Part shown: positions 5,065 to 6,463 of the stretch, in pieces
Position numbering within the stretch: the first letter of the stretch is position 1
Layout: each line of letters begins with the position of its first letter
From: Pseudolabrys sp.
Lineage (GTDB): Bacteria > Pseudomonadota > Alphaproteobacteria > Rhizobiales > Xanthobacteraceae
Direction of reading: 5' to 3'
DNA length: 6,733 nt
Assembly (NCBI GenBank): GCA_026125925.1
Contig: JAHCKF010000198.1
Coordinates: 1-6,733, forward strand
The notes under the pieces: generated by a model
The model's input: the letters and a program-made list of their open reading frames with translations, nothing else
Databases searched by the model: none
Told to the model about the DNA's origin: nothing
Program-made: the position numbers and the translations under genes

Positions 5065-5183
5065 TGTCGTCCCCGTGAAGACGGGGACCCATACGCCGCA
5101 GCGCTAGTGGGTTAAGGGTAATCCTCGCCCTGTTTCTATTATAAACTCCGGGATTATGGGTCCCCGCCTTCGCGGGGACGACA
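5065..5183. repeat. 119-bp palindromic element (paired inverted REP-like arms) between cpoB and tilS
   Basis: Two 29-base arms, 5065-5093 and 5155-5183, are inverted copies matching at 27 of 29 positions. Each arm also folds on itself: an 8-bp stem GTCCCCGT/ACGGGGAC with loop GAAG on the left, and GTCCCCGC/GCGGGGAC with loop CTTC on the right. The two differences between arms fall on paired positions, so both hairpins stay perfect. The 61-base middle includes the most AT-rich patch of the area (TATTATAAA near 5137-5145). The element begins 4 bases after the cpoB stop and ends 11 bases before the tilS ATG. Its translations (VVPAKAGTH..., MGPRLRGDD) are peptides I recall as frequent spurious products of dispersed repeats in rhizobial relatives. 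A BIME-like dispersed repeat is the best call; copy number cannot be seen here. Confidence 0.85.
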
Positions 5184-5194
5184 ACCGAGCGCCT

Positions 5195-6463
5195 ATGCCA
5201 GTCAAAGATGCGACGGCAATTTCGGTCAGCGAAGCCAAGGCTCTGTTCGCCGATCTCCAGACGGCGAAGGCGCTGGTGCTTGCCGTGTCGGGCGGGCCCG
5301 ACTCGATGGCGCTGATGGTGCTGATGGCGCGCTGGCGCAAGGCGCTCAAGCGCGGCCCGAAACTCGTCGCCGTCACGGTCGATCACGGCCTGCGCGCCGA
5401 GGCCAAGCGAGAGGCGCGCGATGTCGCCAGGCTTGCCAAAGAACTCGGCCTTGCCCATCGCACCTTGCGCTGGACCGGGTCCAAGCCGAAGACCGGCATT
5501 CCGCAGGCGGCGCGAGAGGCGCGCTACCGCCTGCTGGCCCAGGCCGCGCGGCAAGCCGGCGCCTGCCATGTCCTGACCGCCCACACCCGCGACGATCAGG
5601 CCGAGACCGTGGTGATGCGCATGAGCCGCGGCAGCGGCCTCGCCGGGCTGGCGGGGATGCGGAAGATCTCGGCCTTGCCCTTCGCTCGGCACGCTCCCTC
5701 CCCCCATAGGCGAGCGAACGCTCGCCGTCCGGCGAGCTATGAGGGGGAGAGTTGGGGAGGGGGGTACGCTGTAAACCCAAGGTCCAAAAAAACACCCCCC
5801 CACCAACGCGCTGCGCGCGGCGACCTCCCCCTCAAGGGGGGAGGTGAAAGAAAGGATGGCTCTGCCGTCATCATCCTCGCCCGCCCCCTGCTCGAAGTTC
5901 CCAAAGCCCGGCTGATCGCCACGCTCGAAGCCGCCGCCGTCGGTTTCGCCGAGGATCCGACCAACCGTGACGCCGCCTTCACCCGGGCGCGGCTGCGGGG
6001 TCTGATGCCGCAATTGGCGGCCGAAGGCCTCGACGCCGCGCGGCTCGCGCTGCTGGCCGGGCGGCTCCGCCGCGCCGACGCCGCGATCGAGGCGGTTGTG
6101 GAGATGGTCTGGCACGGCCTGGCGGGTGGGGGTGAAAAGGGGACCCTGATCTTCAACGCCGCCGATCTGGCGCGACTGCCCGGCGAGATCCGGCTGCGGC
6201 TGATCGGCCGCGCGGTGGACCGCCTCGGTACGGAGGGGCCGGTCGAACTGGGCAAGCTCGAAGCGCTGGTCGAGGCGCTCGGCGCGGCCCTCGCCGGTGG
6301 TAACCGCTGGCGCCGCAGTCTGGCCGGTGCCCTGGTAACGCTGCAGCGCGACAACGTGACCGTCGAAACCGCGCCAGCCCGCCGATCGGGGCATGGCGGC
6401 GGGCGCCGAAATGCCTTAACCAAGGGCCGACCCAAAGGCGCGGCAGCGGCAAAATCGCGCTAA
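5195..6463 (+). CDS. tilS: tRNA(Ile)-lysidine synthase TilS, with an in-frame repeat insertion
   Basis: TilS uses ATP to attach lysine to C34 of tRNA-Ile(CAU), making lysidine so that the tRNA reads AUA and is charged with isoleucine. It is cytoplasmic and normally essential. The PP-loop ATP site SGGPDS is at residues 32-37, followed by VTVDHGLR and HTRDDQAETVVMRMSRGSG, all typical of the family. After an interruption the conserved part resumes with ARPLLEVPKARLIATL and EDPTNRDAAFTRARLR. The protein is 422 residues, ending in a basic, Arg/Lys-rich tail. Residues 163-221 have no TilS character and come from a palindromic repeat; without them it would be about 363 residues, normal for alphaproteobacteria. 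I chose the ATG at 5195; an in-frame ATG at 5156 lies within the upstream repeat and would add MGPRLRGDDNRAP, which looks repeat-derived. Neither start has a strong Shine-Dalgarno. The frame is unbroken, so it is probably functional. Confidence 0.94.
   Translation: MPVKDATAISVSEAKALFADLQTAKALVLAVSGGPDSMALMVLMARWRKALKRGPKLVAVTVDHGLRAEAKREARDVARLAKELGLAHRTLRWTGSKPKTGIPQAAREARYRLLAQAARQAGACHVLTAHTRDDQAETVVMRMSRGSGLAGLAGMRKISALPFARHAPSPHRRANARRPASYEGESWGGGYAVNPRSKKTPPHQRAARGDLPLKGGGERKDGSAVIILARPLLEVPKARLIATLEAAAVGFAEDPTNRDAAFTRARLRGLMPQLAAEGLDAARLALLAGRLRRADAAIEAVVEMVWHGLAGGGEKGTLIFNAADLARLPGEIRLRLIGRAVDRLGTEGPVELGKLEALVEALGAALAGGNRWRRSLAGALVTLQRDNVTVETAPARRSGHGGGRRNALTKGRPKGAAAAKSR
5697..5844. 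repeat. Palindromic repeat inserted in frame within tilS
   Basis: The core is bounded by a 9-bp inverted repeat, CCTCCCCCC (5697-5705) and GGGGGGAGG (5836-5844). The left half folds as CTCCCCCCATAG (5698-5709) with 5737-5749, 12 bp with one bulged A, and has a further GCGAGCG/CGCTCGC stem inside. The right half has a perfect 9-bp stem ACCTCCCCC/GGGGGAGGT (5823-5831/5837-5845) and a 5-bp CGCGC/GCGCG stem (about 5808-5820). GTTGG-GGA-GGGGGG (5751-5764) and CCCCCCCACCAAC (5795-5807) are imperfect inverted copies around a 30-base centre, so the element is a pair of facing related units. The non-TilS coding stretch is slightly wider, about 5681-5857 (177 bases, 59 codons). Reverse-strand peptides such as SPLEGEV are ones I recall from repeats in this order. 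Confidence 0.82.

Follow-up and report, generated by a model that had tools for sequence, protein, structure and literature searches.

In REPIN/RAYT systems, an inverted pair of palindromic units surrounds a variable spacer. GTAG/CGTC REPs are short palindromes, often arranged as dimers, that have been found inside genes of many bacteria besides Rickettsia, and among proteobacteria the CGTC REPs predominate in alphaproteobacteria, according to the main text of PMC3733652. Genes for DNA synthesis and repair and for RNA-binding proteins, including excinuclease ABC, DnaE2, RNA helicases, and tRNA pseudouridine synthases, are prominent among the targets named there, and in recB two Xanthomonas species have different REPs at nearly one position. 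The terms tilS, mesJ, and lysidine are absent from that main text, which is accompanied by a separate supplementary table of target genes. Rickettsia palindromic elements and related cases are covered in PMC10969869, PMC2996958, and PMC5656822. A first-pass annotation of the DNA considered here had regarded an in-frame palindrome as notable for occurring outside the Rickettsiales; it is no first in that respect, since in-frame palindromic repeats are already published from genes of many other bacteria (PMC3733652, main text). We found no report in the open-licence literature that links TilS or lysidine to palindromic elements, and among the papers listed in a broader look none, judged by title and the start of the abstract, concerned this site. 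As far as that literature goes, tilS as a target and the extent to which one of its sites has been reused are new.

We analyzed a 6,733-nt stretch of DNA from Pseudolabrys sp. (contig JAHCKF010000198.1), hereafter called the window, in which a palindromic element lies in frame within tilS. As with Rickettsia palindromic elements, we observed dispersed palindromes of about 150 bp that sit in frame in housekeeping genes, but the host here belongs to the Hyphomicrobiales and not the Rickettsiales, and the likeness considered here is one of behavior. As with intragenic GTAG/CGTC REPs, the units are short, palindromic, often dimeric, and located inside genes. In contrast to those REPs as reported in the main text of PMC3733652, a single TilS loop is occupied here, across many species, by repeats of two or more unrelated families, and the ends of the window's family lack a GTAG or CGTC tag. 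Our best explanation, to which we assign a probability of about 0.85, is that TilS tolerates an in-frame, REP-like repeat in a loop that has been repeatedly reused. The features of the window on which this reading rests are as follows.

5195 to 6463, forward strand: tilS, encoding tRNA(Ile)-lysidine synthetase, 422 aa (PF01171, TIGR02432, and structure matches)
About 5681 to 5845, forward strand: in-frame insert, residues 163 to 217 (by comparison with uninserted TilS loops and the nearest relative)
5697 to 5844, forward strand: core of the palindromic element, 148 nt, with a variable spacer between two inverted arms (from the fold, the alignment of copies, and genome matches)
5697 to 5765, forward strand: left arm, from a sub-family that is dispersed and has a long hairpin loop (69 nt matched at 94 to 97% in genomes G040, G042, G033, and G025)
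5794 to 5844, forward strand: right arm, bearing an additional GC hairpin (by inspection of the 33-copy consensus)

The identity of the gene is supported by profile and structure comparisons. The ORF at 5156 to 6463 matched the PP-loop domain PF01171 (162.8 bits, E value of 9e-48, cut-off of 27) and the TilS model TIGR02432 (154.8 bits, 2.5e-45, cut-off of 93.6), and the top matches of the predicted structure were all TilS chains (3a2k, 2e89, 2e21, 1ni5, and 1wy5), with TM-scores on the query near 0.4 because the model leaves the insert without structure. We place the start of tilS at ATG 5195; the ORF tool extended TilS to ATG 5156, which falls within an upstream inverted repeat (5065 to 5093 and 5155 to 5183), because of that repeat. 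The two 29-nt arms of this repeat are 93% complementary and separate the upstream gene from tilS. Conserved columns on either side of the insert were intact in the alignment with relatives, and relatives in our genus census contained a single tilS per genome, which in one genome (G016) was divided over two contigs. We take TilS to be essential in the window's organism.

In the window, 74 residues separate the end of the conserved GLAGM segment from the RPLLEVPKARL segment, whereas the same loop spans 12 to 19 aa in relatives without the insert. In line with the comparison proposed in the first-pass annotation, the extra stretch is absent from these relatives, and we did not find in the relatives a homologous, nonpalindromic segment of equal length. 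The tilS frame was indeed open across 5681 to 5857, as had been claimed. Of the proposed insert boundaries (5681 to 5857, residues 163 to 221), the start was retained, and the end moved to about 5845, leaving a slightly shorter insert of residues 163 to 217. RNA folding of 5675 to 5860 gave -91.1 kcal/mol (z of -2.70), and 2 of 200 shuffled sequences folded equally well; by folding alone, the palindrome is only moderately unusual, and its dispersal is stronger evidence for an element than its fold.

We counted copies of the element in the genomes of relatives, using a genus set of 43 Pseudolabrys-like genomes around Pseudolabrys sp. Root1462. The 148-nt core of the window, which had been proposed as a palindrome inside tilS and might have been unique, recurred with matches in 32 of the 43 genomes, and identity over its first 69 nt reached 97%. 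A cleaner copy of the element from the nearest relative (G025) had matches in 38 of the 43, with up to 38 per genome in a search that scored at most 20 candidates per genome. Both results are behavior expected of dispersed palindromic repeats such as the Rickettsia elements. Neither the core, the G025 copy, nor positions 5675 to 5860 had a match in Pseudolabrys sp. Root1462 itself. Across the family, 383 of 391 genomes gave a match; among the 30 loci listed from this search, 8 new ones were examined for the TilS loop, of which 6 could be parsed and 2 contained inserts (L166 and L167).

Alignment of 33 full-length copies revealed two inverted arms, as in the terminal inverted repeats of MITEs, and a spacer between them that varied in length and sequence. 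The arms vary together: the loop base of the left arm equaled that of the reverse-complemented right arm in 23 of 28 scorable copies, and none of 10,000 permutations performed as well. The window's left arm belongs to a different sub-family from that of the nearest relative, and part of the insert was therefore either exchanged or separately inserted. Any randomly taken frame of an element copy was open in 45% of cases, and the length of 12 of the 33 copies was divisible by three. A search of Rfam with the window found no family, and no terminal GTAG or CGTC tag was seen by inspection at the ends of the 33-copy consensus. The element shares with REPIN/RAYT systems its build of two palindromic units in inverted orientation with a variable spacer between them but differs from them in the matter of a transposase, since a Y1_Tnp match was found in only 5 of the 43 genus genomes (4 above the cut-off; 5 of 14 controls matched). 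A RAYT as the mover of the element is thus unsupported, and there is no obvious RAYT partner among these 43 genomes.

Element copies also interrupt other genes. Among the 30 loci listed from the G025-copy search, we compared 20 of the 45 ORFs of at least 150 aa that cross element copies against Pfam; gene names beyond the Pfam labels are our own reading. The RNaseH domain of UvrC (L128) and the DEAD domain of an Lhr-like helicase (L130) each contain a copy. In an HrpB-like helicase (L120), a copy falls between domains, as does a half copy in a DNA polymerase III alpha-like protein (L134). Together with TilS, these represent in-frame insertions in genes of unrelated function. Several of the four are repair or helicase genes. 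We did not count as intragenic the copies at MutY (with a Pfam match in L129 and L131 and none in L122), at a metallophosphoesterase-like protein (with a match in L116 only, of four), or at a xanthine-dehydrogenase-like protein (L125), a polymerase-like protein (L137), and an acetyltransferase (L121), because the element precedes the domain in each of these and a later start is possible. In L122, L129, and L131, the copies lie between an apparent N-terminal peptide and the MutY core (in L122 by resemblance), and the MutY N-terminal junction is a possible second recurrent site. The metallophosphoesterase-like case comprises copies just ahead of a similar downstream protein in four genomes (L115, L116, L118, and L133), where they may be coding or upstream.

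Repeats of at least two unrelated families recur in the TilS loop. A readable loop was present in 39 of the 43 genus genomes (three had no tilS match and one had a weak match), and it was open in frame, with no stop or frameshift, in all 39, compared with the 45% noted above for randomly taken frames of element copies. Nine of the 39 carried repeat-derived sequence in the loop, a count that includes L102 (G026), a case of uncertain repeat origin, and excludes L089, a 22-aa loop with no recognized repeat; the remaining 30 had no recognized repeat there. Five of the nine were labeled type A, the type in the window, with three of these being partial (one of them the uncertain G026 case), and four were type B, one of them partial. 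Among 120 TilS proteins, a list that favors insert carriers since the query itself carried the insert, 35 of 37 interior insertions of at least 12 residues were at this loop, and the other two were at core positions 255 and 345. We rejected a prevalence estimate from this list (48 of 119 parsed proteins with an insert, comprising 26 A, 16 B, and 6 other, after P0097 was dropped) because an insert-bearing query favors insert-bearing matches, and we used the genus census instead.

We assessed how the inserts are distributed by building trees of TilS. In a tree of 156 sequences with the loop cut out (98 with no insert, 31 A, 20 B, and 7 other, as classed by regular expressions without hand curation), 27 changes between insert and no insert were counted, and starred branches forced 13 changes for the no-insert state, 8 for A, and 10 for B. 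A tree of 119 proteins gave 20 changes for the no-insert state and 14 for B, with 8 forced in each case. These were quick trees with SH-aLRT support only and many weak branches, and the counts are of changes, with gains and losses pooled.

Type B has the anatomy of a CGTC REP, with a CGTC tag, an 8- to 9-bp stem beginning with AT, and a CCA tail; by inspection of a single copy, L106, the order is CGTC, ATTCCGGG, loop, CCCGGAAT, and CCA. A type B insert had matches in 39 of the 43 genus genomes. In 19 of 20 labeled cases, type B started at the same residue of TilS (18 by pattern and one, VMPG, by eye), and the remaining case, P0028, is a composite of both types. Within the P0028 loop, a type A element adjoins the end of the type B element, as though a repeat had landed in a repeat. 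The start of type A inserts varies within the loop. Host codons for x-(L/V)-P-G at the type B start resemble the repeat's own end (ATTCCGGGG), and microhomology at the loop may therefore help type B to land. A simple CCGGG target fared poorly, with the motif occurring in 9 of 28 uninserted genus loops. That repeats are directed to the TilS loop by its sequence, and do not simply find it tolerant, is a tentative proposal that we consider possible but rather doubtful. If it is true, unrelated repeats keep rewriting one TilS loop across a bacterial family in a natural insertion-scanning experiment.

Comparison of the window with its nearest relative revealed different selection inside and outside the insert. 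The flanks of tilS had an omega of 0.22 over 367 codons and the insert had an omega of 1.28 over 42 codons, the latter value coming from a single pair aligned across a divergent stretch with 34 synonymous sites (Fisher P = 6e-4 for the contrast, with rounded substitution counts). These values suggest purifying selection on the flanks but none on the insert, and the gene looks functional. The window's loop (222 nt) exceeds the relative's (183 nt) by 39 nt, which is a multiple of three, and the two have a similar 3' junction. In the AlphaFold model (mean pLDDT of 76.5, pTM of 0.62), residues 166 to 223, numbered from the codon before the ATG, had a pLDDT below 50 and no confident structure, although few comparable rows for the insert may also contribute to these low values. 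Strands at 159 to 161 and 228 to 230 flank this stretch, and their order suggests that they form a hairpin.

These findings support a model where a dispersed, REP-like palindromic dimer lies in frame in the loop that ends the TilS PP-loop domain. Translation would turn it into some 55 flexible residues whose presence the enzyme tolerates. The insert would then evolve with little amino-acid constraint while TilS as a whole remains under purifying selection. At least two unrelated repeat families would have reused the loop repeatedly, because insertions that break the frame or that damage the enzyme elsewhere are presumably lost. Judged by sequence comparison, the insert is well supported as an in-frame, selfish-type palindromic repeat in what is probably a working TilS. 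The first-pass proposal of such a repeat is thus upheld by the dispersed copies, the relatives lacking it, the selection on the flanks, and the unstructured stretch in the model, with the amendment that it is not a single curiosity.

Other explanations account for parts of these data. Use of the same TilS loop in many species and the stable RNA fold could indicate that the insert is kept for a function, either by altering TilS activity, stability, or expression or through an mRNA hairpin that tunes translation. We consider this improbable, given that the inserts vary in sequence and length between species, come from unrelated families, and show no amino-acid constraint in the pair compared, and that 30 of the 39 genus genomes have no recognized repeat at the loop. 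Because the insertion adds about 55 residues to a conserved region, the gene might instead be decaying, but the low omega of the flanks, the lack of stops, the single tilS per relative genome, and the intact conserved columns on both sides make decay very improbable. Still harder to credit is a palindrome that escapes translation by ribosome bypass or RNA processing: the mRNA could form the hairpin, but neither bypass nor removal needs an open frame, and yet the loop was open in every readable genus genome and the length difference between the window and its nearest relative was a multiple of three.

A tolerated repeat in a reused loop is also compatible with a history of a few old insertions followed by many losses, an alternative to repeated insertion that leaves the nature of the insert unaffected. 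Several observations fit old insertions, as two similar peptide classes account for 22 of the 31 type A loops, a RAPSP-like leader occurs in 14 of the 31 (8 strictly) and could be encoded by only 1 of the 33 dispersed copies, partial forms (L094, L099, L100, and L102) suggest decay, and type B begins at one residue position. Against this history, starred branches force at least the numbers of changes given above for A and B, and type B is about as scattered on the tree as shuffled labels (18 changes versus 19.1, with 121 of 500 shuffles as low). Furthermore, LPG or VPG at residues 6 to 8 is kept in 57 of 93 uninserted loops of at least 15 aa, so that each loss would need precision. We therefore regard a few old insertions as unlikely, while allowing this history appreciable weight.

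The TilS loops form a comparative set in which at least two repeat families occupy one place of one enzyme in many species, and this set allows one to measure how repeat-encoded protein sequence is gained, drifts, and decays. They extend the published in-frame REPs to tRNA-lysidine synthetase and indicate that such repeat-encoded peptides, where they appear in protein databases, can genuinely belong to proteins. One TilS protein (P0020) has a second repeat-like insertion, with PHPNPLPGG, elsewhere in the same protein. In addition, the TilS loop of L167 contains a further palindromic insert that fits neither of the two main types.
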